From: Spelaeicoccus albus
GTDB taxonomy: Bacteria; Actinomycetota; Actinomycetes; Actinomycetales; Brevibacteriaceae
DNA: 64,000 bases
Direction: 5' to 3'
Assembly: GCF_013409065.1 (NCBI RefSeq)
Contig: NZ_JACBZP010000001.1
Span: 124,001 to 188,000 of the forward strand
Shown here: positions 4,574-52,802 of the stretch, piece by piece
How positions within the stretch are numbered: position 1 is the stretch's first letter
Layout: the number at the start of each line of letters is the position of its first letter
Position numbers and translations under genes: made by a program
The notes under the pieces: model-generated
What the model was told of the DNA's origin: nothing
The model's database searches: none
The model's input: only the letters and a program-made list of their open reading frames with translations

Positions 4574-4685
4574 GCGCCCAAGCCTATCGGCGCGCACGTG
4601 CATCCTGCGAATATGGCCCGGCGCGCCACCGCCCCGCACTCCCCGAGCGCCCCGGAGCGGCGCCGGATCCTGCGGGTACGGCAGA

Positions 4686-7176: not shown

Positions 7177-7219
7177 TGTTCTCCTTCGACGAGGCGCCGG
7201 GGAACGGCGCGCAGCTGGT

Positions 7220-7257
7220 AAAAGGCCCCGGGGCGATCTTAGTCCCCGGGGCCTTTT
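7220..7257 (-). terminator. Intrinsic terminator after rplM-rpsI
   Basis: A perfect 14-bp stem (AAAAGGCCCCGGGG at 7220-7233 and its complement at 7244-7257) with a 10-nt loop. In the direction of rpsI the stem ends in four T residues. It lies 38-75 bp beyond the rpsI stop and before glmM. Confidence 0.85.
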
Positions 7258-7294
7258 CGGCGGCAGATTGTCGAGTTACCGCGCCGTGCGTGTT

Positions 7295-7804: not shown

Positions 7805-7840
7805 GGTTCTCCTTGAAAGTAGATGCGGTCGGAATGCGCG

Positions 7841-8284
7841 TTACTGCGCGACCTGGCCGATTTCGTACGGCTGCGGGTTCTGCGCCCGGTGCGGGTGCTC
7901 GGGGCCCGTGTACACCTTGAGCTTACCCAGCTGCGTCGACCCGAGAGCGCCCTTCGGGATCATGCCGCGGATCGCTTTTTCCACGGCACGGCGCGGGTCG
8001 TGTTCGAGCAGCTCTTCATAGCTCATGCTGGAGAGCCCGCCCGGGTAGCCGGAGTGCCGGTACGCGCGCTTCTTTTCCAATTTCGCGCCGGTGAGCGCCA
8101 CCTTTTCGGCGTTGACGATGATGACGAAGTCGCCGGTGTCGATATGCGGGGCGTAGATCGCCTTGTGCTTGCCACGCAGCAACGTGGCGGCGTGGCTGGC
8201 CAGACGGCCAAGAACCACATCGGTGGCGTCGATGACGTGCCACCCACGCTTCACGTCGGCGGGCTTGGGGGTGAACGTACGCAC
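7841..8284 (-). CDS. rplM: 50S ribosomal protein L13
   Basis: Early-assembling large-subunit protein. From the GTG at 8284 the product is 147 aa, the normal length, beginning [19 protein letters not shown] and containing [17 protein letters not shown] and the GMIPKG region. An in-frame ATG at 8314 would add ten residues, but the GTG has an AAGAAGG ribosome site about 8 nt upstream and matches family length, so it is preferred. First gene of rplM-rpsI; the 274 bp between it and the divergent gene at 8559 must hold both promoters, but I cannot point to clear boxes. Confidence 0.95.
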
Positions 8285-8558
8285 GGTTGCAGCCTTCTTC
8301 TCTGATCGATTCATGAAATTCGTTCGTGCCCGCGGCTTCGTAGCAGGCGGCGAAAGAGGTCAGTCCATTACGCTGTGCGCCACGTTGCGACGACTGTCGT
8401 CCGTCAGGACGCGTCGGCGGATGAGGCACGGCACATGACTACCTAGAAAAGATACCGGAAAACCGGTCCCCGGGGCAAAGCGAGACCGGTCGGACGATGC
8501 CGACGCGACGCTCGCGGCATCGCTCGGGCGCGTGCCGGATGCCGGGTAGGGTTGGAGC

Positions 8559-21287: not shown

Positions 21288-22133
21288 CTAGCCCATGGCG
21301 GCCGTGACCGCTCGGCGGGCAAGCACCTCGGCCAAGTGCCTGCGATAGTTGGCGTCGCCGTTGACGTCGGACGGCGGGTCGGTGCCCTCTGCCACGCCGC
21401 TCAACGCGTCGCGGACGTCGGACGCCGTGCCGCCGGTCAGGGCTTGTTCGGCCGCCGCGGCGCGCACCGGGACGGGGCCCATGTTCGTCAGTCCGATCCT
21501 GGCCTCGGCAATACGGTCGCGGTCCATCCGCACCGCTGCCGCCACTGCGACGATCGACCATTGCTGCGCGACGCGGGTGAACTTCTCGTAGTGGGCTCCC
21601 CACCCCTCGAACGTCGGAACGCGGATCTCGGTCAGCACTTCGTCGTCCCCGACGGCCGTCGTGAAGAAATCCTCGAAGAAGTCCGCGGCACTGACGGTAC
21701 GGGTGCCGCCGGACCCGGTAATCACCATCTCGCCTTCCATGGCGAGGATCGGCGCCGGATAGTCCCCGGCCGGATCGGCGTGCACCAAGGCGCCGCCGAT
21801 CGTGCCGCGGTGGCGTACCTGCGAATCGGCGACGGTTGCGGCGGCCTTGCCCAGTAACGGCGCCAAGCGAGCGACGAGCGGGCTGGTGGCGATCTCGTGA
21901 TGGTGCGTCAGCGCGCCCACAACGAGCCGGTCGCCGTCCTGCCGGATGCCGCGAAGCGCATCGATCTTCCCCAAATCGATGACGTGCTCGGGGTCCGCCA
22001 TGCGCAGCTTCATCACGGGGATGAGGCTTTGCCCGCCGGCAAGCAGCTTGGACGTGTCCGGCGATGCAGCGAGCAACGACAGCGCTTCGTCCACGGTGGC
22101 CGGAGTCTGGTAGTCGAACTGGCTCGGAATCAT
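21288..22133 (-). CDS. FAD-binding medium subunit of a molybdenum hydroxylase
   Basis: FAD subunit (281 aa) that passes electrons from the iron-sulfur subunit to the acceptor. It has the two FAD motifs of the family, AGGQSLIP at about 32-39 and TIGGALVHADPAGD-like sequence near 112, and the C-terminal CO-dehydrogenase flavoprotein domain. It starts [11 protein letters not shown] and overlaps the large-subunit stop by 4 bp. Called coxM/cutM-like by position and sequence; the substrate of the complex is not established. Confidence 0.93.
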   Translation of the reverse strand: MIPSQFDYQTPATVDEALSLLAASPDTSKLLAGGQSLIPVMKLRMADPEHVIDLGKIDALRGIRQDGDRLVVGALTHHHEIATSPLVARLAPLLGKAAATVADSQVRHRGTIGGALVHADPAGDYPAPILAMEGEMVITGSGGTRTVSAADFFEDFFTTAVGDDEVLTEIRVPTFEGWGAHYEKFTRVAQQWSIVAVAAAVRMDRDRIAEARIGLTNMGPVPVRAAAAEQALTGGTASDVRDALSGVAEGTDPPSDVNGDANYRRHLAEVLARRAVTAAMG

Positions 22134-24556
22134 GACTGATCTCCTCTAGCGGTCTGCACATTCGGCGCTTCGGCCGTCGCACCCGATCCGGCGTCGTGGA
22201 TCGCTGCCCACACCGTGCTGGGCGAACACGGCATTCGCACGTCCTTGACCCCCAAGTGGCGGATGGCGTCCAGCACGCCGTTGACGATTGCCGGCGTGGA
22301 CGCGATGGTGCCGGCCTCACCGACCCCCTTCACGCCCAGCACGTTCGACGTCGCCGGGGTGGTTGTCGTGTCGGTGATGAACGATGGCAGATCGGCCGCG
22401 CTCGGCACGAGGTAGTCGACGAACGAGCCGGATACCAGCGTGCCGGCATCGTCGTACACGGCCTCTTCGAACAGGGCCTGCGCGATGCCCTGAGCCAGCC
22501 CGCCTTGCACTTGGCCTTCCACCAGCAGCGGGTTGATGATCGTGCCGATGTCGTCCACGCACACGTACTTGCGCAACGTGACTTGGCCGGTCTCCGTGTC
22601 GACCTCCATCGCACACAGGTGGCTGCCGTGCGGGAAGGAGAAGTTCTCCGGGTCGAACGTTGCATCCGAATCGAGGCTTGCTTCTATCCCGTCCGGCAGA
22701 TCGTGGGCGGCGAACGCGGCAAGCGCGACGTCACCGAGTGCGACGCCCTGATCCGTTCCGCGCACGCCGAACCGGCCGGACTCGAATTCGATATCGTCCT
22801 CACTGGCTTCCAGCATGTGCGCCGCAATGACCTTGGCCTTGGCGATCACCTTGTCGGCGGCGGCCACGACCGCCATCCCTCCGACGGTCAGCGATCTCGA
22901 CCCGTACGTGTCCAGGCCGCGCTGGGCGACCTGCGTATCGCCGTGCAGGATCTCGACGTTGTCGAAGGGCACGCCGAGCCGATCGGCCACGATCTGGCTG
23001 AACCCCGTCTCGTGTCCCTGCCCGTGCGGGCTGATCCCGGTGACGACCTCGACGTGGCCGGTCGGCAGCACCCGTACTTGTGCGTACTCCCAGCCGCCGG
23101 CACCGTAATCCAGCGATCCGAGCACGCGGGACGGCGCGAGACCGCACATTTCGGTATAAGTCGACACCCCGATCCCCAGCTGTACCGGGTCGTTCGACTC
23201 GCGGCGGCGTTGTTGTTCGGCACGCAACTCCTCGTATCCGAACAACTCGAGCGCCTTGTCCGTGGCGGCCTCGTAGTTGCCGCTGTCGTATTCCAGCCCG
23301 GAAATTGTCGAGAACGGGAATTCGTCGTGCTTGATCCAGTTCTTCCGCCGGACTTCCAACGGATCCATGCCGAGTTCCGCGGCAAGTTCGTCCATCATCC
23401 GTTCGATGGCGAACGTGGCCTCCGGACGTCCGGCGCCGCGGTAGGCGTCGGTCCACACCTTGTCGGTGAACAGCGCCTTCGACTCGAACCGGTAGGCGGG
23501 GAACTTGTAGATGGCGTTGTACATGAACGCGCCGAGCACCGGAATGCCGGGCCCGACAAGCCCGAGGTACGCGCCCATATCGGCAAGCAGCCGCACATCG
23601 AGTCCCGTCACGGTGCCGTCCTTATTGGCCGACAGCTTCAGCCGCTGCACTTGCGCGCGGCCGTGATGGGCGCCCATCAGCGATTCGCTGCGGGTCTCGG
23701 TGTATTTGCACGGCTTGCCGGTGCGCTGCGCGGCAAGCACGGTTATCACTTCTTCGGGAGTCACTTCGAGCTTGCCGCCGAAACCGCCGCCGACGTCCGG
23801 CGCCGTCACCCGCAGCTTGCCTTCCGGTATGCCGAGAGTCATCGACAGCATCGTGCGCAGGATATGCGGGATCTGCGTGGCCGACCACATCTCGATCCGG
23901 TCGCCGGTCGGGTCCACCAGGATCGACCGGGGCTCCATGAACGACGGGATCAGCCGTTGTTGGTACAACGTGCGTTCGATGACGACGTCGGAGTCGGCGA
24001 TCGCTTGCTGCACATCGCCGCCGGTACCGGCCGAGGCCGAATCGAAGACCCACACCGAGGATGTATTGGTGCCCAGATCCGGGTGCACGAGCTCTTCGTC
24101 CCGCTCGGCGGCTTCCAGATCCACCACGACCGGCAGATCATCGTAGTCCACGTCCACGAGCTCAATAGCATCTCGTGCCTGGGCGGCGGTCCGCGCGATC
24201 ACGACTGCCACGATCTCACCGGCAAAGACCACTTCATCGATAGCGACCGCCGGATGCGCGGGGGCCTTCTGGTCGGGAGTGACGGGCCAGGCGTTCGGCA
24301 GGCTGCCCTGCGAATCGGCCAGATCCGGTCCCGTGAGGACGTCAACCACTCCGGGCGACGCCTTGGCGGCGGACACGTCGAGTCTCGTGATCTTCGCGTG
24401 CGCGACGGGGCTGCGAACCATGCCCAGCGTCAACATGCCGACGCGACTCATGCTGTCGGTGTAATGGTTGCGCCCCGTGATGAGCCGGGCATCTTCCTTG
24501 CGTAACCGGCGGCGGCCGATCTCGGCTGTCGTCTCGGAGTCTGAGGTGACGCTCAT
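22130..24556 (-). CDS. Molybdopterin large subunit of a form II CO-dehydrogenase-like hydroxylase
   Basis: Catalytic subunit of 808 aa of the xanthine-oxidase family, carrying the Mo cofactor. Family landmarks include the Gly-rich loop DVGGGFGGK near 254 and the active-site Glu in GVGEAGT near 760. The active-site loop is AYRGAGR at 371-377, the form II signature; true CO dehydrogenase (form I) has AYxCSFR with the Cys that holds Cu. The substrate is therefore probably not CO, but an aldehyde, heterocycle or similar. ATG at 24556 overlaps the small-subunit stop. Confidence 0.93.
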
Positions 24557-25035
24557 TGCGTATCTCCTTCGCCCGCCGCGGCACTGACTGCCTCGACAAT
24601 GCTTTGGTATCCGGTACACCGGCACAGGTTGCCTTCGAGCCCGCTCCGGATTTCTTCTTGGCTCGGGTGCGGATTCTCGTTCAGCAAGGAGACCGATTGC
24701 ATGATCATTCCGGACGTGCAATATCCGCACTGCAAAGCCGCGTGCTCGTGGAACGCCTGCTGCACCGGATGCAATTCACCGTTCTGCGCAAGCCCCTCGA
24801 CGGTGACGACCTCATGGCCGTCGGCTTGGACGGCGAACATGGTGCACGATTTCACGCTTTCCCCATCAAGCAACACCGTGCACGCGCCGCAATTGGTGGT
24901 GTCGCAGCCGACGGTTGTGCCGGTTTTTCCCAGTCGCTCTCGCAAGTACTGCACCAGCAGCAGCCGCGGTTCTACGTCATCGGAATATTGGGCGCCGTCA
25001 ACGGTCATCGTGACCGTCTGCTTGGTCGTTGTCAT
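24553..25035 (-). CDS. 2Fe-2S small subunit of a molybdenum hydroxylase
   Basis: Electron-transfer subunit of 160 aa with two [2Fe-2S] sites: the plant-ferredoxin motif CDTTNCGAC plus a later Cys at about residues 44-64, and the C-terminal CGYC/CRC motif. First gene after a 131-bp gap, with an AGGAG ribosome site 9 nt before its ATG, so the structural genes may have their own promoter there. Overlaps the large subunit gene by 4 bp. Gene order small-large-medium-CoxG. Confidence 0.94.
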
Positions 25036-25166
25036 CAGTGACCACTCCTAACGAATGACCTGCCTCGATGTGACGAACATTACACCGTTTGGAGTCTTTA
25101 TGACTTAGCCGAGACTTACCTTTCGCAGAACCGGAAATTCACCGCGCGGGCACCCCGCAGCCGCGG

Positions 25167-26285
25167 TCAATCGTGGTGGATCCGACCGGCCAGTTCGCTC
25201 AGCTTGTCGCCCCCGCCGCCCCACTGATCGGCAATGATCTCGGCAGCGATCGACACGGCAGTCTCTTCCGGGGTGCGTGCTCCGAGGTCCAATCCGATCG
25301 GGCTCGACAAGCGTGCGAGCTGCTCGGCGGACACTCCCTGTTCGATGAGCTGGTCGAGTCGATCCTGGTGCGTTTTACGCGATCCCATCGCCCCGATGAA
25401 GGCTACCGGTGGCATAGTCAGGGCAAGCTGCAGCAGCGGCACGTCGAACTTCGGATCATGCGTGAGCACGCCGATCACCGTCCGTTCGTCGATCCGGCCG
25501 GCATCGAGTTCGGCCTGCAGGTAGTCGTGCGGCCACCGAACGACCACCTCGTCGGCGTCCGGGAACCGGGCACGGGTGGCAAACACGGGACGCGCATCGC
25601 AGACAGTCACGTGATATCCGAGGAAATGCCCCTGCCTGGCCATGGCCGATGCAAAGTCGATGGCGCCGAAGATGAGCATCCGCGGCGGCGGCGCATAACT
25701 AGCCGCGAACACGCGCATGCCCTCACCGAGCCGTTCCCCGTCGGGCCCGTACGTCAAGGTGCCGTTGCGTCCGGCGGCCAGCAGACCGCGGACGTCGTCC
25801 GCGACTGCCTGGTCGGCCCTGTCGGACCCCATCGCCCCGGATGCGCGGTCCGGCCAGACGACCATTCGACGGCCCACCCAGGCGCGGTCCGGGTGTTCGA
25901 TGACGGTGGCCACCGCGACCGGATTGCCGGCTTCGATATCGGCTGCAACCTCGGCGAGTTCGCGAAAGTTCTCCTGCGAGACCGGCTCGACGAACACGTC
26001 GATGATGCCGCCGCAGGTCAGCCCGACCGAAAAGGCGTCGTCATCGCTCACGCCGTAGCGTTGCAGCACGGGCACGCCGTCCGCCGCGACCTCGGTGGCC
26101 AGCTCGTACACGGCGCCTTCGACGCATCCGCCCGACACGGAGCCGGATGCCGTCCCGTCCGGCGCCACCAGCATTGACGCGCCCGGCAGCCGGGGCGCCG
26201 ACTGGAACGTCCGCACCACCGTGGCAAGCCCCGCCCGACCACCGGACTTCCATGCCGACAGCAAATCATCCAATATGTCACGCAT
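25167..26285 (-). CDS. XdhC/CoxI family cofactor-insertion protein
   Basis: Accessory protein of 372 aa that in relatives binds the Mo cofactor and delivers its sulfurated form to the hydroxylase. The N-terminal XdhC/CoxI domain has SGSVSGGCVEGAVYE near 46-61; the C-terminal Rossmann domain has MLIFGAIDFASAMARQ and a downstream IGAMGSRKTH motif. It overlaps the coxE-like gene by 8 bp. Located between the maturation genes and the structural genes. Confidence 0.92.
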   Translation of the reverse strand: MRDILDDLLSAWKSGGRAGLATVVRTFQSAPRLPGASMLVAPDGTASGSVSGGCVEGAVYELATEVAADGVPVLQRYGVSDDDAFSVGLTCGGIIDVFVEPVSQENFRELAEVAADIEAGNPVAVATVIEHPDRAWVGRRMVVWPDRASGAMGSDRADQAVADDVRGLLAAGRNGTLTYGPDGERLGEGMRVFAASYAPPPRMLIFGAIDFASAMARQGHFLGYHVTVCDARPVFATRARFPDADEVVVRWPHDYLQAELDAGRIDERTVIGVLTHDPKFDVPLLQLALTMPPVAFIGAMGSRKTHQDRLDQLIEQGVSAEQLARLSSPIGLDLGARTPEETAVSIAAEIIADQWGGGGDKLSELAGRIHHD

Positions 26286-27375
26286 CCGCGATCATCTCCA
26301 ACAGTTCCGCAAATGCGGCCAGCGAATGGCCGGCCACCAATGAATCCACGTGCGGCAACGCCGCCGCCATGCCGCCTTGTGTGGGCGTGAATCCCGCCTT
26401 ACCCCGATGCGGATTCGACCAGAAAACCTTCCTGGCCACGCTCGACAGACGACGCATCTGGTCGGCCAGGAGTTCCGGGTCGCCGCGCTCCCAGCCGTCG
26501 CTGGCTATGACGACGACGGCGCCGCGCGCCATACCGCGCTGCCCCCACAGATCGAGAAAAGCGCCCAGCACGTCGCCCAGCCGAGTGCCGCCGGACCAGT
26601 CGGGGACCGCTTCGCCGGCCAGCAGCAGCGCCCGGTCCGGGTCGATTGTCCGCAACGCGCGGGTCACGCGGGTGAGCCGGGTGCCGAGGGTGAACACCTC
26701 GGTGGTGTGCTCGGTGGAGTGGACGACGCGATGGGCAAGTCGCAGCAACGAGTCGGCGTAGTTCTTCATGGAGCCGGACACGTCGATGAGCAGCACGAGT
26801 CGCCGCTGCCTGATCCGGTTCCGCTGAAATCGCAACGGACCCGGCTCGCCGGCGCGGCGTAATTGATCACGCATCGTGCGCACCGTGTCGATCCGCGCGT
26901 GCCCGTACGGCTCGGTCCGGCGGGCGCGCCTGGTGGGAGCCCGCACGGTGAGAGAGCGAAACTGGCGGTCCAGCAGCACCTTTTCGGCTTGGCTCAGGGT
27001 CGCCACGTCGCGGTGGCGCAGCGTCTCTTCGGCGCTTGCGACGGTCGCGGCAAGGGCGTCGTCGTCCTCTCCGGTGCCGTCCCCGGGTTCCAAGGCGGCT
27101 TGTGTCACCGTCGACGGTGCTTCGTGCGCGGGCCGACTTCCGCCCGATTCGTCGGGCGTAAACCAAGCGTCGAAAGTCCGGCTGAATCCGGCGATGTCAT
27201 CGGGGCACGAGCAGAAGGTGGCGCGTCCGGCCCAATACACGTGATCGCGCCGACCGATGCCGAGCCGGGACGCCGCATCGATGAACGTGTGAGTGCGGTC
27301 CGACGTGACGGGCAGCCCGGCGGCGCTCAGCGCGTGCGCGAACCCGACAAGGAGGGCTTCCGGCGAATTGGGCAT
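26278..27375 (-). CDS. VWA-domain protein, CoxE-like
   Basis: A 365-aa CoxE-type protein with a C-terminal von Willebrand A domain. The MIDAS metal site is visible as DVSGSM near residue 199, a Thr in the SGGTRLGD loop and SDGWERGD. In CO dehydrogenase systems CoxE works with the MoxR ATPase CoxD in maturing the active site. It starts one base after the coxD-like stop and overlaps xdhC, confirming an operon. The Cys pair CSC near residue 50 is a possible metal site, unassigned. Confidence 0.92.
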   Translation of the reverse strand: MPNSPEALLVGFAHALSAAGLPVTSDRTHTFIDAASRLGIGRRDHVYWAGRATFCSCPDDIAGFSRTFDAWFTPDESGGSRPAHEAPSTVTQAALEPGDGTGEDDDALAATVASAEETLRHRDVATLSQAEKVLLDRQFRSLTVRAPTRRARRTEPYGHARIDTVRTMRDQLRRAGEPGPLRFQRNRIRQRRLVLLIDVSGSMKNYADSLLRLAHRVVHSTEHTTEVFTLGTRLTRVTRALRTIDPDRALLLAGEAVPDWSGGTRLGDVLGAFLDLWGQRGMARGAVVVIASDGWERGDPELLADQMRRLSSVARKVFWSNPHRGKAGFTPTQGGMAAALPHVDSLVAGHSLAAFAELLEMIADA

Positions 27376-27376
27376 C

Positions 27377-28261
27377 TCATGCCGCCAACAGCCGGTTCAA
27401 CGAGTCGCGTACCCGGTCAAGGTCCTCGCGGTATTTGCACACGGCTCCGATGGAAGCGGCGGCCGAGGCGAGGTCCAGATCGGTGTGCCCCAATTGCACG
27501 AGGGCTCGGGACCAGTCGAGGGTTTCGGCGACCCCCGGCGGTTTCAGCAGGTTTTCCTCATTCCGCAGCCGCTGTACGACGCCGACCACTTGTTCGGCGA
27601 GTCGCTGCGGCACGCCGGGCAGCCGGGCGCGCACGATCGCCACCTCGCGTTCAAAGCTCGGATGGTCGATCCAGTGGTAGAGGCACCGTCGTTTCAACGC
27701 GTCGTGCAGTTCGCGAGTGCGATTCGACGTCAGCACGACCACCGGCGGGTGCGCAGCGCGAATTGTGCCGAGTTCGGGAATCGACACCTGGTTCGTCGAC
27801 AGAACTTCGAGCAGAAAAGCTTCGAATTCGTCGTCGGCGCGGTCGATTTCATCGATCAGCAATACGGACGGCCCGTCCCGGAGCGCTTGCAGGATGGGTC
27901 GGGCCAAGAGGAACCTCTCGTCGAACAGCGAGCGTTCGACGTCTTCGGGGGCGTGAGCGCCGGCGGCGGAGGTCGCCTCAAGGGTGCGCAAGTGCAGGAT
28001 CTGCTTCGTGAAATCCCAGTCGTACAGGGCCTGAGAGACGTCGATCCCCTCATAGCACTGCAGCCGGATGAGAGGGCGGCCCAGCGAGTCGGCAAGCGCC
28101 TCGGCCAGCGACGTCTTGCCGGTGCCCGGATCTCCTTCCAGCAGCAACGGTCGGTGCATGGACAACGCCAGATAGGCGACAGTGGCAAGCCCGTCGTCAC
28201 TGAGATAGCCGACCGAGCGCAGTCGCTCGGCCACCTCCTCGGTCGTTGAGATATCAGTCAC
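27377..28261 (-). CDS. MoxR-family AAA+ ATPase, CoxD-like
   Basis: Chaperone ATPase of 294 aa. Walker A is EGDPGTGKTSLAE near residues 40-52, Walker B LLIDEIDRAD near 124-133, and sensor 1 VVLTSNRTRELHDALKRRC near 170. The MoxR-VWA pair remodels the immature molybdenum enzyme in CoxD/CoxE systems. It is the first gene of the cluster; the promoter should lie in 28262-28339, where I see no confident boxes. Confidence 0.93.
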   Translation of the reverse strand: MTDISTTEEVAERLRSVGYLSDDGLATVAYLALSMHRPLLLEGDPGTGKTSLAEALADSLGRPLIRLQCYEGIDVSQALYDWDFTKQILHLRTLEATSAAGAHAPEDVERSLFDERFLLARPILQALRDGPSVLLIDEIDRADDEFEAFLLEVLSTNQVSIPELGTIRAAHPPVVVLTSNRTRELHDALKRRCLYHWIDHPSFEREVAIVRARLPGVPQRLAEQVVGVVQRLRNEENLLKPPGVAETLDWSRALVQLGHTDLDLASAAASIGAVCKYREDLDRVRDSLNRLLAA

Positions 28262-28919: not shown

Positions 28920-30014
28920 TCACCGGTGCGGACGCGGAACCAGCACTTCCTCACCGGTGCCCGGAGAGGCCGGACGCCGCGGCCTGTTGGCCGCCGCTAC
29001 TTTCTTTGCCACGATCTCGTGGTCCGGCGAAAGCACGCATACCGGGTCGGTCCGCGAGGCGTCGCCGGTGAGCAGGAACGCTTGGCATCGGCATCCGCCG
29101 AAGTCGATATCGCGGCGGAAGCAGCTGCGGCACGGCTCCGGCATCCAGTCGGTGCCGCGAAACTCGTTGAAGACTCGGGACGACGTCCAAATGGCTTCCA
29201 GCGAATCGTCCCTGACGTTCGCACGCGGCAGCGGCAGTGTGTGCGCGGCCGGGCACGGCAGCGCGTCGCCGTTCGGCGTCACGGTGAATTGTCGCTTGGC
29301 CCACCCGTCCATGCAGGGTTTGGGATATTCGCTGTAGTAGTCCGGGATGATGTAGATGACTTCCATCCGCCCGGCCAGCCGTTCCCGGTGCGCGCGGACG
29401 ACCGGCTCGGCGCGCGCCAATTGATCCCTGCTGGGAAGCAGCGCGGTGCGGTTGGTCAGGCCCCAGCCGTAGTACTGGGTATTGGCCAGCTCGATCCGGT
29501 CGGCCCCGAGGTCATCGGCAAGCATGATGATCTCGCCGATCCGGTCGATGTTCATCCGGTGCAGGACGACGTTCAAGGTCAGCGGCCAGCCGAGTTCCTT
29601 GACGACCTTCGCTGCGTCGATTTTGCGCTGGAACGACGGCGTGCCGGCGATCTTGTCGGACAAGGCCGTATTGTCGGCTTGGATGCTGATCTGCACGTGG
29701 TCGAGTCCCGCAGCTTTGAGTTTTTCGGCGCGCGTCCGCGACAGCCCCATCGCGCTGGTGATGAGGTTCGTGTACAGTCCGAGCCCGTGTGCGGTGGCGA
29801 TGATGTCCGCGAGATCGCGCCGCAGCAACGGCTCGCCGCCGGACAAGTGCAGTTGCAGGACGCCGAGATCCCGCGCCTCGGTGAGCACTCGCCGCCATTC
29901 CTCCCCTGTCAGCTCGTCTCGGTAATCGGCGAGGTTCAGCGGATTCGAGCAGTACGGGCAGGCCAACGGGCACCGGTAGGTGAGTTCGGCCAGAAGCCCG
30001 AAGGGATTATCCAT
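28920..30014 (-). CDS. pqqE: PqqA peptide cyclase (radical SAM)
   Basis: Radical SAM enzyme of 364 aa that forms the Glu-Tyr carbon bond in PqqA, the first chemical step of PQQ synthesis. The SAM cluster motif is CPLACPYC (C15, C19, C22); the C-terminal SPASM domain has further Cys, including CPAAHTLP, PCRSCF and GGCRCQAF. The ATG at 30014 ([15 protein letters not shown]) overlaps the pqqD stop by 8 bp; an upstream in-frame extension is spurious. PqqD is needed to present PqqA to this enzyme. Confidence 0.96.
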   Translation of the reverse strand: MDNPFGLLAELTYRCPLACPYCSNPLNLADYRDELTGEEWRRVLTEARDLGVLQLHLSGGEPLLRRDLADIIATAHGLGLYTNLITSAMGLSRTRAEKLKAAGLDHVQISIQADNTALSDKIAGTPSFQRKIDAAKVVKELGWPLTLNVVLHRMNIDRIGEIIMLADDLGADRIELANTQYYGWGLTNRTALLPSRDQLARAEPVVRAHRERLAGRMEVIYIIPDYYSEYPKPCMDGWAKRQFTVTPNGDALPCPAAHTLPLPRANVRDDSLEAIWTSSRVFNEFRGTDWMPEPCRSCFRRDIDFGGCRCQAFLLTGDASRTDPVCVLSPDHEIVAKKVAAANRPRRPASPGTGEEVLVPRPHR

Positions 30015-30291
30015 CGCTGATCTCCAAACATCCGTCGCGTACCTGGCGTGCAACGAATTCCGCTACCTCGCCGGCGGGAACCTCCCGGTACTGTCCGATC
30101 AGTTCCGCCTCGATCTCGGCAACCGACCGGCGCCCGTTGCACAAGCGGAGGATGTCGGCGGCAGTGCCGTTCACTACCGACACGGTCTCGGGGCCGAGCA
30201 GGACGTACTTCCCGCGCACTGCATCGAACTGCAGCCGCAAATGCGCGCCGAGCGACGGCCGGCCCGTCATGATGTGCTGGTCAGTCGGCAT
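30007..30291 (-). CDS. pqqD: PqqA-binding chaperone
   Basis: Small RiPP-recognition protein of 94 aa that binds PqqA and delivers it to PqqE. It shows the PqqD fold signature: [24 protein letters not shown] and [16 protein letters not shown] at 30291 ([10 protein letters not shown]) gives the usual length and overlaps the pqqC stop by 11 bp; the longer frame is not needed. Confidence 0.94.
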
Positions 30292-30967
30292 ACGCACGCC
30301 CGATACCGTCCAGCATGCTCCAGAGCACATCGCACTTGAACGTCAGCGCCGCAACTGCACTTACTTTTTGTTCCGGCGTCCGGCAATATTCGGTCACGAC
30401 TTCAAGCGCGTGCTGCGAATCGCGAGGCGCCTGTTGCAAGCGCGACCGGAAGTACGCCAAGCCGTCCGCATCGATCCACGGGTAGTAGCGTTCGAACGCG
30501 CCGAGCCGTTCGGCCATCAGGTCGGGGGCGAACAGTTCGGTCAACGACGAGGCAACGGCTTCGACCCACGGCCGGGTCCTGGCGAACGTGACGTAGGCGT
30601 CGACGGCAAAGCGCACTCCGGGAACGACGTGGCGTTCGCCGAGTACTTCCTCACGGCTCAGGCCGACGGCTTCGGCAAGCCGCAGCCACGCTTCGATGCC
30701 GCCCCCGCCGTCGGCTGTCCCGTCCTGATCGAGGATGCGACGGATCCATCGCCGGCGCACTGCCGGATGCGGGCAGTTGGCCATGATCGCGGCATCCTTG
30801 CGGGGAATGTTCTCTTGGTAATAAAAACGATTCGCGACCCACCCCTGCAGCTGGCGGCGATTGAGTTCGCCTGCATTCATGGCGACGTGGAACGGATGCT
30901 GATCGTGATACCGCTGCGACTGCGCACGCAACTCGTCAATGAAACCGTCGGTCTCGGTGGTGGTCAT
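30281..30967 (-). CDS. pqqC: Pyrroloquinoline-quinone synthase
   Basis: Cofactor-less oxidase of 228 aa that performs the last ring closure and eight-electron oxidation to PQQ. It has the TenA-like helical fold with [34 protein letters not shown] and AxxxNCP motifs. It directly abuts pqqB and overlaps pqqD. Length is slightly below the 235-250 aa of proteobacterial PqqC but the conserved core is complete. Confidence 0.95.
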
Positions 30968-31885
30968 CTAGATGCTCACTTCTAATCCGTCGGCGGCCAC
31001 TTCGAAACCGCGCGCTTCGACGGCGCGCCGCTCCGGTGAGCCGTCCAGCAGGACGGGATTGGTGTTGTTCATGTGGATATAGATCGTCCGGCCGATGGAC
31101 AGCCCCGTCAGCCGTTCGAGGCTTCCATCCGGCCCGCTGATCGGGACATGCCCCATCGAACGGGACGTCTTGCCGGCAAGGCCCAGCCGGATCAACTCGT
31201 CGTCGCTCCAGCACGTGCCGTCGACGAGCAGGCAATCACAGCCCTCGACGAACTCCAGTACGTCCGGGCCCAAGTACTGGGCGCACGGCAGGTACACAAT
31301 CGACGGCTCGCCGGTACCGTCACTTGGGCCGTCACTTGGGCTTTCACTCAAGCGGTACCCGACGACGCGCGCCTCGGACGCCGCGTGGTCGGCGCCGAAG
31401 CGAGCAGTCTTGGTAGTCGGCACGTCGAACGCCCGGTACGTCAGTCCGCCGTCCAGCCGCACGGCCGTTCCGGGTTCCACTTGCCGCCACACGATCTCGC
31501 TGTACCGCTCGAGGGTGCGCAAAACCCCCGACCCGTCCAGTAGCGTCCGCCGCACTGCGGCTGTGGCGTGCAGATCGAGGGTTTTGCCTTCGCGCACCAA
31601 CAAGAGGCCGAGAGTGTGGTCGAGTTCCGCATCCGTCAACAGCACGGACTTCAGCGGAGTCGTGCGGCCCGGCCGCGGGAGCAGCGCGTCGAACGATTCG
31701 ATCTGCGCGTGGATGTCCGGCGAAAGGTTGATCACCGTCCAACGCCGATCATCGACGCACACCGCCACCGACGACTGGGTCCGCGGACGGGCGGCCCCGC
31801 CGCGAACCGCCGTGCACACCGGGCACGAGCAGTTCCATTGCGGCGAGCCTCCGCCCGCAGCCGATCCCAGTACCCGCAGCCGCAT
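30968..31885 (-). CDS. pqqB: PqqB hydroxylase-type protein
   Basis: Metallo-beta-lactamase-fold protein of 305 aa required for PQQ synthesis, shown in relatives to hydroxylate the Tyr-derived ring. It begins MRLRVLGSAAGGGSPQWNC with the CSCPVC cysteine cluster, and has LSPDIHAQIESF, LLTDAELDHTLGLL and a C-terminal GHVPISGPDGS segment. It follows pqqA by 38 bp and its stop abuts the pqqC start. Confidence 0.95.
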   Translation of the reverse strand: MRLRVLGSAAGGGSPQWNCSCPVCTAVRGGAARPRTQSSVAVCVDDRRWTVINLSPDIHAQIESFDALLPRPGRTTPLKSVLLTDAELDHTLGLLLVREGKTLDLHATAAVRRTLLDGSGVLRTLERYSEIVWRQVEPGTAVRLDGGLTYRAFDVPTTKTARFGADHAASEARVVGYRLSESPSDGPSDGTGEPSIVYLPCAQYLGPDVLEFVEGCDCLLVDGTCWSDDELIRLGLAGKTSRSMGHVPISGPDGSLERLTGLSIGRTIYIHMNNTNPVLLDGSPERRAVEARGFEVAADGLEVSI

Positions 31886-31923: not shown

Positions 31924-32025
31924 TCAGTCCTCTCGGGCGACGTATGCCGTGACCTCGGCCGAGCAGCCGATGTCGACAATCTCGGGTGTCTCCCACTCGC
32001 GGGACAAATCGGACACGATCTCCAT
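31924..32025 (-). CDS. pqqA: PQQ precursor peptide PqqA
   Basis: Ribosomal precursor peptide of 33 aa from which the Glu and Tyr of PQQ are taken. The core is AEVTAYVA, giving E24 and Y28 in the required Glu-x3-Tyr spacing. The ATG at 32025 has a near-perfect AGGAGGTG ribosome site about 7 nt upstream, consistent with high expression. The leader is longer than in the common 23-24 aa proteobacterial form. It lies between the alcohol dehydrogenase and pqqB, in the same direction. Confidence 0.93.
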   Translation of the reverse strand: MEIVSDLSREWETPEIVDIGCSAEVTAYVARED

Positions 32026-32076: not shown

Positions 32077-33768
32077 TCAGACCGTCTCGGGTAGGGCGAA
32101 AACGAACAAGGCGTCACCGTGCGGCGCGCCGAGCATGGCCGGCAGGAATCCTTCGACCCAGCCGCCCCAGCCGACGGGCACTGCAATGTACTGCCTGCCG
32201 TCGATGCTGTACGTCATGGGGCTGCCGTGGTGACCGTTGCCGGTCTGGAACTGCCACAGGATCTCCCCGGTCTGCGCATCGTAGGCGTTGAATTCTCCGG
32301 TGGGCTCGCCCGTGAAGACGACTCCGCCGGCAGTGGCGAGCATCGACGCGCACATGGGCAGCTTGTGCTCCTGCCGCCACACTTCCTTGCCGGATGCATC
32401 GAATGCCTTCACGAACCCCTTCATATCGGTGGAGTCCACCACTACCGATGCGCCCCAGTACGGCATGCTCTCCTTGAATTCCCGGCGCCGGCGGCGAACT
32501 GTGGCACCGACGTCTTGCACCGGCACGTAGAACAGCTCGGTTTGCGGGCTGTACGCCGCATGCGTCCATTCCTTGGCGCCTGCGGGTCCCGGCCAGAAGT
32601 GCACCGGGTCGCCTTCCTTGTCCGGGTAGACCTTGACGGTGATCTTGCCGTCTTCGCTGATCTCGCCCCAGTCCACGCGTTCGCCGAACTTGGCGGCTCG
32701 AATCAATTCACCGTTCGTCCTGTCGAGCACGAACATGTACCCGTCCTTGTCGAAGTGGGCAAGAAGCTTGCGTCCGCCCTGATCGAACAGGATGTTCTCC
32801 ATGGTGCTGTCGTAGTCCCACAGATCATGCGGGTTGTACTGATAGTGCCAACGAATCTCACCGGTGTCCGGGTCGACGGCTACGACGGAATCCGTGTAGA
32901 GGTTGTCCCCGGGGCGTACTTCGCCGTCGAAATCCGGGGCCGGATTGCCGGTGCCCCAGTACATGAGGTTCAGCTCCGGATCGTAGGTGCCGGTGATCCA
33001 GCAGTTCGCACCGCCTCGCTGCCACGCCTCGCCGTCGGCCGGCCAGGTCTCCGAACCGGGCTCGCCCGGCTTCGGGATGGTGTAGCACCGCCACAGGTGC
33101 TTGCCGGTATTCCGGTCGAACGCGTCGATGTGCCCGCGCACGCCGAATTCGCCGCCGGAGCTGCCGACCATCACCTTGTCCTTGACCACCAACGGTGCCA
33201 ATGTCGCGCTTTCACCGGCCCGGACATCTCCGTACGTGGCATCCCAGACCAGTTTTCCGGTGGCGGCGTCGAGAGCGACAACGTGCGCGTTCAGGGTTGC
33301 CACAAAGACTTTCCCCTCGGCCACCGCGACGCCGCGATTGACGTTGCCGCAGCATAGCGACACGTCGTACGGGATCTCGTGCTTGTACCGCCACAGCTCT
33401 TGGCCTGTCCGACCGTCGAGGGCCCATACCCAGCCGTCCCAGCCGGAGACGAACATGACGCCGTCCACGACCAGCGGGGTGGCTTCGAAGGAATACGTCG
33501 ACGCACCGGCGTGGATTCCCGCCGCGCCGAATTGGAAGACCCAGGCCGGCGCGATCTTCTTGACGTTGTCTTTCGTGATCTGGTCCAGCGTGCTGTAGCG
33601 CTGTCCGTCGTAGGTGCCGTAGTACGTGAGCCAGTTGTGCGGCTCCGACCGGGCGTTCACAATCCTTTCGTATGTGACGTCGTTCGTCACTGCCGGCGCG
33701 TGCCCCACCACATTGCTCAGGTCCGAGTGGTCGACTGCCTCTCCGGCATCGATATATTCAGTCATCAT
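32077..33768 (-). CDS. PQQ-dependent alcohol dehydrogenase, lanthanide-type
   Basis: Quinoprotein of 563 aa with the eight-bladed propeller of methanol/ethanol dehydrogenases. W-motif repeats are scattered through it, and the adjacent Cys pair C139-C140 (LCCGNVNRG) forms the ring over PQQ. Predicted metal ligands are E207, N275 and catalytic D318, plus D320 in WDYDS; that extra Asp two residues on is the mark of lanthanide enzymes such as XoxF and PedH. There is no signal peptide or membrane segment, and an in-frame stop ten codons upstream rules out a longer N-terminus. ATG 33768 or 33765. It is co-directional with the cupredoxin-like gene before it and pqqA-E after it. Substrate unknown. 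Confidence 0.93.
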   Translation of the reverse strand: MMTEYIDAGEAVDHSDLSNVVGHAPAVTNDVTYERIVNARSEPHNWLTYYGTYDGQRYSTLDQITKDNVKKIAPAWVFQFGAAGIHAGASTYSFEATPLVVDGVMFVSGWDGWVWALDGRTGQELWRYKHEIPYDVSLCCGNVNRGVAVAEGKVFVATLNAHVVALDAATGKLVWDATYGDVRAGESATLAPLVVKDKVMVGSSGGEFGVRGHIDAFDRNTGKHLWRCYTIPKPGEPGSETWPADGEAWQRGGANCWITGTYDPELNLMYWGTGNPAPDFDGEVRPGDNLYTDSVVAVDPDTGEIRWHYQYNPHDLWDYDSTMENILFDQGGRKLLAHFDKDGYMFVLDRTNGELIRAAKFGERVDWGEISEDGKITVKVYPDKEGDPVHFWPGPAGAKEWTHAAYSPQTELFYVPVQDVGATVRRRRREFKESMPYWGASVVVDSTDMKGFVKAFDASGKEVWRQEHKLPMCASMLATAGGVVFTGEPTGEFNAYDAQTGEILWQFQTGNGHHGSPMTYSIDGRQYIAVPVGWGGWVEGFLPAMLGAPHGDALFVFALPETV

Positions 33769-33795: not shown

Positions 33796-34260
33796 TTATG
33801 CTCTGGGTTGTGCCGGGCGGTCGAGCTTCGCGTCATCGGCGACGTCGCCCAGCACGACGATAATTCCGTTGAGTCCTCGTCCCTCGTCGTTGCCGACCGG
33901 GGACGAATACCAGTAATAGCCGGGGCCGTCGAGGTTGAGATGCGCCGTCCCCCGCGCCCCGTTTTCCAACCAGATGAACTTTCTGTCATTGTTGCTGGGC
34001 AACAACGCGCAGTGCGTGTTCCGGTCGTCGTTTGTCAGTTCGAGCTCCAGGTCGCCGCCATGCGGCATGACAGTGACCGACGGCTCGAAAATCAACTCGT
34101 CAAACGGGATGCGCACGCTTGCATGCATGCTCCCGTCCGCGTTTTCCTCGGCATGTCCGAGGCCACCCGCTCCGATCATGCGGCCGAGTGTTGCGCCATT
34201 CTGCTTGTCCAGCCCCAGCTCGCTCATTACCGAGCCTAGATTCGCAATGGTGGTCGCCAT
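33796..34260 (-). CDS. Cupredoxin-like protein without type 1 copper ligands
   Basis: A 154-aa protein whose second half reads like a cupredoxin: FEPSVTVMPHGGDLELELTN, His83, then a final strand pair GPGYYWYSS...GLNGIIVVLGD. In copper proteins this end reads YYxxCxxxxH...GMxGxIVV; here the Cys, His and Met positions are Ser119/120, a non-His and Leu130. Only the first His remains, so a blue-copper site is unlikely. No signal peptide. AGAGGTG ribosome site 7 nt upstream. It lies 27 bp before the PQQ dehydrogenase and is probably its partner or an assembly factor; that is inference. Confidence 0.75.
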   Translation of the reverse strand: MATTIANLGSVMSELGLDKQNGATLGRMIGAGGLGHAEENADGSMHASVRIPFDELIFEPSVTVMPHGGDLELELTNDDRNTHCALLPSNNDRKFIWLENGARGTAHLNLDGPGYYWYSSPVGNDEGRGLNGIIVVLGDVADDAKLDRPAQPRA

Positions 34261-34420: not shown

Positions 34421-35047
34421 TTAGTTTTCGAACCTATGGTCGACGTCTGCGCCGCCGGCCAGGTCCCCGCATTCGACAATCCGGACGTCGCGCGACGCCA
34501 AATAGTGTTTGGCGCCGACGTCGCCGGACAAGGTGGCGGCCAGCGGCCCGAGGTGGTCGACCCCTATCAGTACCGGATGCCCGGGCACGCCTTGGTAGGC
34601 CGCACGGGCCAGCACGCTCGGCCCGGCCACGCGCGTGACGCGTCCGATCACGTCGGCGCCGACGTCGGGCAGGTCGACGAGTTGCACAAGCACTGCGGCC
34701 GGCGGGCGACTCTCGGCATCGGCATCGGCAAGGACAGCCTCCAGCCCGGCTCGAAGACTTTCCCCCATGCCTTCCGTCCAGCGCTGGGCGACAACCACAC
34801 GCACGAGTCCGCCGTCCGGCGCACCCGGCCGGACTTGGGCCAACAGTTCTCGTGCCCGCTCGTGGCCTGATCCGAGCACCACGAGCACGCGGTCGCAGCC
34901 GCCGGCCAATACCGACCGGACGGTCCGGACTATCCACGGCACGCCGTCCGTGCCGATCACCGTGGCCTTCGGCTTGCCCATTCGGCGCCCGGCGCCGGCT
35001 GCCAGGACCAAGCCGGTGACTGACGGTTCATCGGGTGCGGCGCTCAT
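34421..35047 (-). CDS. MobA/MocA-like molybdenum cofactor nucleotidyltransferase
   Basis: Nucleotidyltransferase of 208 aa with the N-terminal signature LVLAAGAGRRMGKPKA and the metal-binding LVDLPDVGADV. Family members add CMP or GMP to molybdopterin; CO-dehydrogenase-type enzymes use the CMP (MocA) form. A role in supplying the hydroxylase encoded at 20.8-25 kb is plausible from distance and function but not shown. The ATG at 35047 begins MSAAPDEPSV; the longer frame lacks support. Confidence 0.85.
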   Translation of the reverse strand: MSAAPDEPSVTGLVLAAGAGRRMGKPKATVIGTDGVPWIVRTVRSVLAGGCDRVLVVLGSGHERARELLAQVRPGAPDGGLVRVVVAQRWTEGMGESLRAGLEAVLADADAESRPPAAVLVQLVDLPDVGADVIGRVTRVAGPSVLARAAYQGVPGHPVLIGVDHLGPLAATLSGDVGAKHYLASRDVRIVECGDLAGGADVDHRFEN

Positions 35048-35134
35048 ACCTGCATGGTAATGGGCGTCACCCGGTGATAGCAGTCGGCGCACGCCCCTGC
35101 GGGTCGTGCGCCGACTGCTGCCTGGTGGCTCGGC

Positions 35135-37718: not shown

Positions 37719-39194
37719 TCAGGCTCCGACCGCTACGCCCCGGGCGCGAAGAGCTTGCCTGGCGTCCGCCGCGGACGTCCAGAGAATGGCATCGATACCG
37801 GCGGCCCGAGCGGCGTCGACGTTGTCGTGCTTGTCGTCGACGAACAGCACGCGACCCGGATCCGGGTCGCCCAGTCGGGAGAGCAGCAACGAGAATATCC
37901 GCTCGTCCGGCTTGGCCATGCCCACATCCCCCGACACGATCAGCTCGGTGAAATAGTCGCCTGCCGGCGTCTCGCGCAGATCCGCTGCGAACGAACTTGC
38001 CGCGTTCGACAGCAGGGCGAGCCGCACCGGCTTTGCGGCAAGCTCGTCAAGCAGAGCGGCGGACTCGGGCTGCAGTTCGAGCCAGGCGTCGTTGTCGGCG
38101 CGCACCAGTTCGGGAATCGACGCGTCGACGCCCAACTCGGCAAGCATTCCCGGCCAGTAGCCCTCATCGTTCAGGTCGTATCCTGCCCGGCCGCGCCAAT
38201 ACGCGGGCGCCACGTCGGATTCGTCCATGCCGAGAAGCGCGGCAACGGCCGGCGGTCCGGCGTCCGGGCGCGAGAGCACATTGCCGAAGTCGAACACCAC
38301 CCACTCGGGGCGACGTGCCGCGTCGAACCTCTCGAGCTCACCGGCCGGCATGGCATAGGCGTGCTCGGGCCCCGGGAACGTGCGTGCGCGCACGTCGCGT
38401 GCGTAGGCATTCAGTCCGCGGGCCGTCTCGGAGCGCACATCGGCGAACCGCTTGACGAACTTCGCCACCCGGCCGTCGGTGACGCCGAGCAGGTCGTGCC
38501 AGACAAGTACCTGTCCGTCGGTGGCCGCTCCGGCGCCGATTCCGATCACGGGGATGCCCGACGCCGCTGTCGCCGCGCAGGCCACCGGATCGGGCACCGC
38601 TTCGATCACGAGCGAGAAACACCCGGCGTGTTCCAGCTCGGCAGCGCCGCGCAGCAGCCGTGCCGCAGCATCGGCGGTGCGCCCTTGCGCCTTCAACCCT
38701 CCGAGCGCCGACGCCGACTGCGGCGTCAATCCGATGTGTCCCATGACGGCGATGCCGGCATCCGCGATCGCGCGGGCACGCGAGACGGAAGTGCCCGCCC
38801 CTTCGAGCTTGACGGCGTCCGCGCCGGTTTCTCGGATGATCCGTTGAGCGCTTGCCACTGCCCGTTCGTCGGATGCCTCGTAGCTGCCGAACGGCATGTC
38901 GACGACGAGCAGCGGGGTGGCGGCGCCGCGACGGACCGCCGCGCCGAACACGATCAGCTCGTCAAGACCGATCGAGACCGTCGACGTGTACCCGAGCACG
39001 CAATTGGCCGCCGAATCGCCGACCAGGATGACGTCGACTCCGGCCTCCTCGGCCAACGCCGCGGACGGAAAGTCGTACGCGGTGACCATGACTATCGGCT
39101 CGCCCGCAGCCTTCATCCGCGCCAGCGTCGCGAGAGTGACGGGCCGTGCATCCGCGCTGCGCGGGCCGGACGGCGCCTTGGATCCGGAACTCAT
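37719..39194 (-). CDS. panB: Ketopantoate hydroxymethyltransferase fused to a HAD hydrolase
   Basis: A 491-aa two-domain protein. Residues about 15-285 are a complete PanB, which makes ketopantoate from ketoisovalerate and methylene-THF: VTAYDFPSA, the metal Asp in LVGDSAAN, and GHIGLTPQ are present. Residues about 297-490 are a complete HAD-IA phosphatase-like domain: VFDFGNVL with D302, Ser in LLSNAAS, Lys in MAKPDERIF, and VDDKHDN. No stop codon or internal ribosome site separates them, so this is a true fusion. The start overlaps the panC stop as ATGA. The HAD substrate is unknown. Confidence 0.92.
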   Translation of the reverse strand: MSSGSKAPSGPRSADARPVTLATLARMKAAGEPIVMVTAYDFPSAALAEEAGVDVILVGDSAANCVLGYTSTVSIGLDELIVFGAAVRRGAATPLLVVDMPFGSYEASDERAVASAQRIIRETGADAVKLEGAGTSVSRARAIADAGIAVMGHIGLTPQSASALGGLKAQGRTADAAARLLRGAAELEHAGCFSLVIEAVPDPVACAATAASGIPVIGIGAGAATDGQVLVWHDLLGVTDGRVAKFVKRFADVRSETARGLNAYARDVRARTFPGPEHAYAMPAGELERFDAARRPEWVVFDFGNVLSRPDAGPPAVAALLGMDESDVAPAYWRGRAGYDLNDEGYWPGMLAELGVDASIPELVRADNDAWLELQPESAALLDELAAKPVRLALLSNAASSFAADLRETPAGDYFTELIVSGDVGMAKPDERIFSLLLSRLGDPDPGRVLFVDDKHDNVDAARAAGIDAILWTSAADARQALRARGVAVGA

Positions 39195-46408: not shown

Positions 46409-47455
46409 TCAATCCTCGATGGGTACGGTGCCGAAAACCGTGAAGCTGATGACCCAGTACACGATGTACAGCGCCAGGAGAAGCCATCCGTGCCATCGAC
46501 GAAGATCGCCGGTGGACAGCACCCAGGCAGCGACCGCCGTCATGACGATGAGTGCGGGGAGGTGCCACTCGAGGACGCCGGCGCCGGCCACTATGCTGCC
46601 GCCGGCCAACACGATGATGCCGAGTTTGGCCGTGACGGAAAACACGAGGCTGCCTATCACATTGCCGATGCCGATCAGCGGGACCCGGTTGCGGAAGGGC
46701 TGCACCGTCAACACGATGTCCTCGCCGGTCAGCACGATCGTCGCGATCGTCGCACCGAAGACCGTGCCGTCCAGGTGGTAGTCGTGCAAAATCCCTTCGG
46801 TGCCCATGCTCGTGGTTTGGGCTCCGATGATGATCCCGACCAACGCAAGCACCGCCAGGCCGATGTTCGCCCAGCCGGAGAGTCCGCGTTGCTGGGCGTA
46901 CGGCAGTTGACGCACTTTCGTGCCGATGCCGCCGTCCGGGCCGCTCTCGGACGGATCCGTGTCGGTTGCGCCGGCGGCGACGTGCTCATACACTTCCGGG
47001 CTTTGAAATGTCGGCGCGGAGCGCTGGTGCTCGCGAACGGCGATGTAGACGAGGAACAGTACGAACAGCGCCAGGAGGATCACGCTCTGCGGAATTCCGA
47101 TGGGCGAGGTGAGCGTGATGACGATCATCAGCAGCGGAGCCACCGCGAAGATTGCCAGATAGTCCCTCGGGAGGGTGATCTTCGTGGGCTTGATGATGAT
47201 GGCGAGCGCAAGCACAATGCCGCTGAACGAGACCGCCGTACCAAAGACCAGCCCGAGGGCCACCCCCTTCAGATCGTCGAGGTTGAGGGCCACGCCCAAG
47301 GCCACGTCGTCGAATTCGATGCCGGTAAAGATCACTGCCAGCAAGAAGACCGGAATGAGCAGTCGGCTCGCCGCGCCGACCAGATATCCGACGAGTTTGT
47401 CCGCACTGTAGATCAAGACGGCCGCGCCCGAGACGAACACGAAGATCGATGTCAT
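46409..47455 (-). CDS. Sodium/calcium exchanger-like membrane protein
   Basis: Membrane protein of 348 aa with ten or eleven predicted segments, arranged as two repeats around a polar central loop (about 150-200). Each half has a CaCA-like alpha-repeat: FTGIEFDDVALGVALNLDD and ATIVLTGEDIVLTVQP...GIGNVIGSLVFS. Acidic residues in the repeats fit cation binding, but the motifs differ from classic CaCA sequences, so the ion is uncertain. ATG at 47455. A small inverted repeat (CCAGCA/TGCTGG, 47479-47496) lies upstream in its leader. Confidence 0.78.
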   Translation of the reverse strand: MTSIFVFVSGAAVLIYSADKLVGYLVGAASRLLIPVFLLAVIFTGIEFDDVALGVALNLDDLKGVALGLVFGTAVSFSGIVLALAIIIKPTKITLPRDYLAIFAVAPLLMIVITLTSPIGIPQSVILLALFVLFLVYIAVREHQRSAPTFQSPEVYEHVAAGATDTDPSESGPDGGIGTKVRQLPYAQQRGLSGWANIGLAVLALVGIIIGAQTTSMGTEGILHDYHLDGTVFGATIATIVLTGEDIVLTVQPFRNRVPLIGIGNVIGSLVFSVTAKLGIIVLAGGSIVAGAGVLEWHLPALIVMTAVAAWVLSTGDLRRWHGWLLLALYIVYWVISFTVFGTVPIED

Positions 47456-47622
47456 AGCCCCTGCTCCATCGTGGACGGCCCAGCACGCTCTGCTGGCCAC
47501 ATAACAACCGAAGCAGGGGGTTGTCAAGACCTTGGCGCGGCTCGTCAAAGATCGGCGACGCCGCGCAACTCAGTGAACGAGGGCAGTCCCGGCGGCTCTC
47601 ATCGACCGGCCGTTTTCATCCA

Positions 47623-51488: not shown

Positions 51489-52802
<1,314 letters not shown>

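Follow-up and report, generated by a model that had tools for sequence, protein, structure and literature searches.

Alcohol dehydrogenases that use pyrroloquinoline quinone (PQQ) together with a lanthanide are viewed as periplasmic enzymes (PMC10875860, PMC11845868). Lanthanide stores are known in the cytoplasm of M. extorquens (PMC8316094). Among actinobacteria, an XoxF5-like amplicon from an Arthrobacter, a PCR fragment assigned to XoxF5, has been published, and every amplicon of the study that spans the position of the lanthanide Asp has this residue; another Arthrobacter strain, distinct from the amplicon source, grew more with Ce than with Ca, and all isolates tested also grew with Ca (PMC5606694). 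No canonical methanol dehydrogenase was found in the one methanotrophic Mycobacterium (PMC12482762), and the MSMEG_3726/3727-pqq cassette of Mycolicibacterium smegmatis is mentioned, with neither metal nor location, in the available excerpts of PMC3023750 and PMC6529628. Here, we analysed a PQQ alcohol dehydrogenase, its adjoining partner protein and the pqq genes that follow them in a 64-kb stretch of the Spelaeicoccus albus genome (contig NZ_JACBZP010000001.1, positions 124,001 to 188,000), hereafter the window.

The window enzyme resembles PedH/ExaF in fold (Z score 48.0, 40% identity), in its four metal ligands, in the GTGNPAP loop and in a vicinal Cys pair. Unlike PedH, which is periplasmic (PMC5487730), it has no signal, its partner is a copper-free cupredoxin-fold protein, and its operon contains no cytochrome gene. 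With XoxF it shares the fold (Z 43.9-45.6), a Gly ahead of the ligand Glu, and the second Asp (roles as given in PMC11845868), but the operon has no XoxG-type cytochrome gene, the enzyme has no signal, and the structural score is below that of PedH. The M. smegmatis cassette matches by name, in partner family and gene set (TIGR04339, PF23509), a comparison by description rather than by sequence; it is not called lanthanide-type, cytoplasmic or copper-protein-derived in the available excerpts of PMC3023750 and PMC6529628. The Arthrobacter amplicon is likewise actinobacterial, with no location, partner or operon described in the excerpts of PMC5606694. Two Gram-negative relatives, hereafter the sisters, come from an Armatimonadetes assembly (L088) and a Gemmatimonadetes assembly (L089). 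Their enzyme is 64% identical, with the same adjoining partner and the same metal ligands, but they carry lipoprotein-type signals on both proteins, a complete copper site and a Cys pair at columns 392/421.

We consider it reasonably probable that a PedH/XoxF-like quinoprotein of lanthanide type, originally exported, made a single move into the cytoplasm at the root of an actinobacterial clade and lost its copper electron carrier. The system is a variant of the lanthanide-type quinoproteins, its probable intracellular life being the surprising part. The first-pass annotation of the window had stressed the actinobacterial host. The host was borne out, but since the Arthrobacter amplicon was already published (PMC5606694), finding a PQQ enzyme of lanthanide type in an actinobacterium is in itself no novelty.

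Metal site of the dehydrogenase

The features on which the comparison rests are as follows.

32077-33768, minus strand: PQQ-dependent alcohol dehydrogenase, 563 aa, ATG start, no signal peptide (TIGR03075, 633.7 bits)
33148-33150, minus strand: codon of metal ligand E207, in GGEFG (sequence and alignment)
32944-32946, minus strand: codon of metal ligand N275, in GTGN (sequence and alignment)
32815-32817, minus strand: codon of D318, by homology catalytic base and metal ligand (sequence and alignment)
32809-32811, minus strand: codon of D320, the extra Asp found in lanthanide enzymes (sequence and alignment)
33349-33354, minus strand: codons of the vicinal pair C139-C140 (residue counts in the clade)
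33796-34260, minus strand: MSMEG_3727/PF23509 partner, 154 aa, cupredoxin fold without signal peptide or copper site (TIGR04339, 237.9 bits; PF23509, 255.4 bits)
33871-33903, minus strand: former copper loop of the partner, S120..D125..L130, with C, H and M in the sisters (alignment)

The TIGR03075 score exceeds its cut-off of 480.05 bits, placing the family call far beyond chance. The first-pass annotation had proposed E207, N275, D318 and D320 as metal ligands, the last two within a WDYDS motif that begins at residue 317. These letters are confirmed and line up with the residues that bind the lanthanide in PedH and XoxF, D320 falling on the second Asp of both PedH and XoxF 4mae. The window enzyme therefore carries the Asp two residues past the catalytic one together with the Glu and Asn ligands. 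A small residue had been expected at this place in calcium enzymes, and pairwise alignment places a Thr there in the quinohaemoproteins 1kv9 and 1kb0, which we take to be calcium enzymes. PedE has a Ser at the equivalent place and PedH an Asp (PMC5487730).

We then considered the clade as a whole, which comprises the window, 31 loci from a scan of named genomes (found among the best 80 of 588 candidate loci) and 11 further relatives. E207, N275, D318 and D320 are invariant in all 40 members counted (residue counts leave out partial L091, partial L028 and L142), and the D320 equivalent is also an Asp in both Gram-negative sisters. The named-genome scan used the patterns HD[LV]WDYD, which favours D320, and M[TM][QT]EY[IVT]DA, which favours a signal-free start. 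Search bias was rejected as the cause: the family-model sample (10 TIGR03075 matches plus L142), free of this bias, also has WDYD and no signal, and D320 is present in 11/11 complete members found without a D320-containing pattern.

The AlphaFold model of the dehydrogenase (mean predicted local distance difference test, pLDDT, 85.0) best matched lanthanide PedH 6zcw, with a Z score of 48.0, a root-mean-square deviation of 2.1 over 522 residues and a template modelling (TM) score of 0.87; the metal site itself was assigned from the alignment and not from model coordinates. Taken together, these residues suggest that a lanthanide would be the native metal. The earlier claim is supported in part: the site is of lanthanide type, the enzyme comes from an actinobacterium and a pqq cassette accompanies it, while the metal actually bound is not demonstrable by sequence.

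Export signals, copper ligands and cysteines

What the first-pass annotation had overlooked is that both the dehydrogenase and its partner are without an export signal and that the partner is without a copper site. No strongly hydrophobic N-terminal stretch was detected on the dehydrogenase in 43/43 clade members, as judged by 12-residue hydropathy and inspection by eye. The maximum reaches at most 0.82 in the window enzyme, 0.14-1.47 in the 31 named-genome loci and 0.10-1.04 in the 11 further relatives (L023 and L024 being identical in this stretch, and L028 partial). By contrast, the sisters have lipoprotein-type signals with values of 2.58 (L088) and 2.52 (L089), and 39 of the 47 other, more distant relatives reach at least 1.62; the remaining eight (L093, L102, L120, L127, L129, L130, L132 and L135) fall below 1.6, some of them being N-terminally extended or at a contig edge. 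A signal missed through a truncated gene call was rejected, as the upstream frames of the 43 clade members, followed back from W46 for at most 90 residues or until a stop codon, contain no strongly hydrophobic segment. A different PQQ dehydrogenase in an Acidimicrobiia assembly (L099, 7001-8557), with D-x-D and a hydrophobic N-terminus, groups with Bryobacterales; exported types therefore also exist within the phylum.

The partner scores above the curated cut-offs of both its families. Its predicted structure (mean pLDDT 88.5) matches cupredoxins in Foldseek, with a best E value of 1e-6 and TM scores of 0.74-0.80 by target and 0.48-0.49 by query in the first four rows; no PDB chain matched it by sequence. 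In both sisters, the partner holds a complete type-1 copper set, one His followed by C, H and M in one loop, and bears lipoprotein-type signals (hydropathy 1.87 in L088 and 2.50 in L089). In the clade, the copper Cys is replaced by Ser, the second His by Asp and the Met by Leu in all 43 readable copies (window, 31 named-genome loci and 11 further relatives, the unreadable partial copy L031 being left out). The first His is retained, with a Cys one or two places behind it, so that of the His, Cys, His, Met set the window partner keeps the first His only. Hydropathy gave no export signal on the clade partners, with one doubtful case (L063). The partner gene lies close to the dehydrogenase in 31/31 named-genome loci, and the protein may have a structural, loading or contact role. 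In the open-licence papers searched, we found no description of the clade as signal-free or of MSMEG_3727 as a copper-free cupredoxin.

The cysteines differ as well. The 392/421 pair, presumably the second disulfide of exported enzymes to judge from methanol dehydrogenase structures, occurs in 0/41 clade members (one of them partial), in 2/2 sisters and in 33/47 other relatives, while the vicinal pair C139-C140 is unchanged in 40/40. The clade averages 7.6 Cys per enzyme versus 4.0 in the sisters, other relatives ranging from 2 to 14.

In a tree of 68 proteins, the 40 clade rows form one branch (Shimodaira-Hasegawa-like approximate likelihood ratio test 99) to which the two sisters stand closest (100), and the tree requires no more than a single change of export state. 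A hydrophobic N-terminus is seen in 23 of the 26 outgroup rows (L093, L102 and L132 being labelled exported with no verified signal), which makes loss of the signal the simpler direction. For size, 21 of the 49 non-clade relatives were omitted from the tree; partial L091, partial L028 and L142 are also outside it, and it holds no XoxF, PedH, MxaF or PedE reference. The signals, the copper ligands and one Cys pair have gone and the metal site is kept, which fits a reducing, copper-poor compartment, and we therefore infer that the dehydrogenase resides in the cytoplasm.

Operon, neighbourhood and distribution

On the minus strand, the genes run in the order partner, dehydrogenase, pqqA, pqqB, pqqC, pqqD and pqqE, the last ending at 28920. 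A complete pqq set following in the same direction had been reported from the first reading, and pqqA-E do follow the dehydrogenase on its strand; pqqB, pqqC, pqqD and pqqE each score above their own NCBIfam cut-off.

31924-32025, minus strand: pqqA precursor peptide, 33 aa, E-V-T-A-Y motif, AGGAGGT upstream (sequence)
30968-31885, minus strand: pqqB (TIGR02108, 348.6 bits)
30281-30967, minus strand: pqqC (TIGR02111, 323.9 bits)
30007-30330, minus strand: pqqD (TIGR03859, 68.7 bits)
28920-30053, minus strand: pqqE (TIGR02109, 531.1 bits)
46409-47548, minus strand: calcium-exchanger-type membrane protein, 12 kb from the operon (below the TIGR00367 curated cut-off)

Neighbouring genes were compared with targeted probes, because spurious GC-rich frames dominated an unselective clustering of the neighbourhood. 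In the fetched flanks of the 31 named-genome loci, an MntP-like transporter is present in 15 and a calcium-exchanger-type protein in 7 others, KatG in 16 and an R2-like ligand-binding-oxidase (R2lox) relative in 7 others (L062, L073, L074, L077, L081, L090 and L116), never both, and a LytTR regulator in 19. Two of the R2lox-like relatives scored well below the curated cut-offs. None of the 49 non-clade loci matched the transporter, KatG, R2lox or LytTR probes, a weak control since they belong mostly to other phyla.

Ten genomes were searched whole. Seven have an MntP-like gene, in eight copies, seven of them beside an operon and one (G184) on another contig. A close exchanger is found in two genomes lacking the MntP-like gene, that of the window and G784, where it lies beside the partner gene. 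In G098, a weak exchanger match (25-33%) adjoins the MntP-like gene, and G065 has neither an MntP-like gene nor a close exchanger, with a weak exchanger match elsewhere in the genome; the two transporters are thus mostly, not strictly, alternatives. The window exchanger is 57% identical to one directly after pqqE in Geodermatophilus (L070) and is the sole match in its genome at E 0.001; at a distance of 12 kb, its link with the PQQ operon is putative. Both transporter families score far below their curated cut-offs. Metal passage across the cytoplasmic membrane may matter to the operon.

Carriers are few. The partner family is found above cut-off in 11 of 396 sampled genomes of the phylum (17 at E 0.001), where TIGR03075 gave 10 matches above cut-off in 9 genomes, the window's included, all of this clade. 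Within the window's class, 2/394 genomes have the partner, its own included, and within its taxonomic family only its own genome, 1 of 60, has the enzyme. These low counts point to a patchy distribution, the cassette probably moving between genomes. A plasmid search for further members recovered a 73% identical copy on a 1.56 Mb Streptomyces plasmid. The hosts include Solirubrobacterales assemblies, Streptomyces, Amycolatopsis, Pseudonocardia, Geodermatophilus, Actinomycetospora, Saccharopolyspora, Kineosporia, Micrococcaceae and others, and the window enzyme is 67-78% identical to members across the phylum. Psychromicrobium silvestre (L078) carries identical head-to-head dehydrogenase and partner copies at 3299-4981 (minus) and 7001-8680 (plus), which could reflect a recent duplication in inverted orientation or an error of assembly. 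Outside the clade, the PQQ dehydrogenase of a metagenome bin labelled Klebsiella pneumoniae (L100) groups with uncultured proteobacterial ones, and the label looks doubtful.

Other genes of the window were also noted. A mycothiol-S-transferase gene (PF04978; 28340-28954, minus strand) begins within the 3' end of pqqE, and an aldehyde or thiol link is possible. Downstream, at 21288-28261 (minus strand), lie CoxM, CoxL, CoxS, XdhC, VWA and MoxR-type genes, and upstream, at 34421-35092 (minus strand), a MobA/MocA-like gene; MoxR and MobA were assigned by hidden Markov model and the other Cox-set genes named by reading. The PQQ operon appears to be inserted in a molybdenum-hydroxylase (Cox-like) gene set, whose CoxL motif reads AYRGAGR; true CO dehydrogenases have AYRCSFR. 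An obligate partnership with this oxidase was rejected: its genes flank the window operon, but no coxL match was found in the 31 named-genome loci. Farther away, a translation at 37719-39194 (minus strand) reads as PanB, ketopantoate hydroxymethyltransferase, seemingly joined to a phosphatase domain of the HAD type. At 51489-52775 and 52871-54046 (minus strand), two neighbouring Rpf/G5-like cell-wall proteins share a long middle part that is nearly identical by reading, and they are likely a recent tandem duplication.

Alternative explanations and proposed mechanism

Several observations weigh against a cytoplasmic lanthanide enzyme. All clade members share one ancestry, so that the counts are not independent, and only two Gram-negative sisters were found, both metagenome assemblies. 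As to the metal, fold scores do not separate lanthanide from calcium enzymes (calcium ExaA 1flg, Z 46.0; XoxF structures, 43.9-45.6), and the neighbouring transporters take their names from Mn and Ca and not from lanthanides. Nor is the D-x-D motif fully diagnostic: the E. coli-type membrane glucose dehydrogenase, traditionally regarded as a Mg/Ca enzyme, has it too. This dehydrogenase has, for its part, been predicted to be facultatively lanthanide-dependent (PMC11996626). The D-x-D of these Mg/Ca enzymes and the MntP-like and exchanger-type neighbours would suit a cytoplasmic quinoprotein whose metal is calcium or another divalent ion, with D320 as a leftover of lanthanide ancestry. We regard this as unlikely, given that D320 is invariant in the 40/40 members counted, including the members found by family model, and that free cytosolic calcium is kept very low.

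As to location, the vicinal Cys pair, which forms a disulfide in exported enzymes, persists although the proposed compartment, the cytoplasm, is reducing, and the 392/421 pair is also missing in 14/47 other relatives. The extra Cys are a weak sign, as the window enzyme has the fewest (5) and 12-14 occur in three Planctomycetes proteins of exported type. The L063 partner could gain a hydrophobic N-terminus from an upstream TTG/GTG start; the hydrophobic stretch of the L030 partner lies ahead of all start codons, and that of L091 is weak. An ordinary lanthanide quinoprotein working outside the membrane, exported by an unrecognised route such as a twin-arginine translocation (Tat) passenger, ESX or non-classical secretion, would agree with the vicinal pair kept in 40/40 and with the periplasmic location of characterised relatives (PMC5487730, PMC10875860). 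The dehydrogenase signal is, however, absent in 43/43, and continued export leaves unexplained why the copper site of the partner and the second Cys pair of the enzyme were lost alongside the signals, which makes this explanation unlikely.

The KatG and R2lox-like neighbours would suit a cytoplasmic alcohol oxidase, compatible with the relocation that we favour, in which oxygen re-oxidises PQQH2 and KatG or the R2-like oxidase handles the products. We find this distinctly unlikely: the 64-kb window has no KatG or R2lox-like match, KatG is found among the further relatives at L142 only, 8/31 named-genome loci have neither, and, because these neighbours follow subclades, they count as few events. 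Finally, a PQQ-cassette relic of little or no activity would account for the rarity described above but is scarcely credible in view of the sequence identity kept across the phylum, the four invariant metal ligands, the complete pqq set and the recurring gene order.

Under the relocation of an exported lanthanide-type quinoprotein, pqqA-E of the same operon would supply PQQ in the cytoplasm, where it would bind the dehydrogenase with a trivalent lanthanide held by E207, N275, D318 and D320. By analogy with the family mechanism, D318 would take the proton of an alcohol, a hydride would pass to PQQ and the aldehyde would be released. In the sisters, electrons would pass to the type-1 copper lipoprotein encoded next door, as its ligands suggest; in the clade, the retained partner is copper-free, and electrons from PQQH2 must therefore exit by another route. 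No cytochrome family was found among the 10 operon and flanking proteins scanned, a distant gene remaining possible. The MntP-like or calcium-exchanger-type transporter may handle the metal across the cytoplasmic membrane, and in the window the Cox-like molybdenum-hydroxylase set might oxidise the aldehyde further, an arrangement not seen in the 31 named-genome loci.

It is possible, and we propose it tentatively, that this represents the first intracellular lanthanide enzyme system, combining a cytoplasmic quinoprotein, its own cation transporter, electron disposal by a route new for PQQ enzymes, and a former copper protein that perhaps loads metal or PQQ with its new His-Cys pair. If true, a cytoplasmic lanthanide quinoprotein would give a reason for lanthanide uptake into cells and would extend lanthanide biology to Gram-positive bacteria, including Streptomyces, Pseudonocardia, Amycolatopsis and Geodermatophilus species and Solirubrobacterales assemblies, raising the question of what accepts the electrons of PQQH2 where neither cytochrome c nor copper is present.
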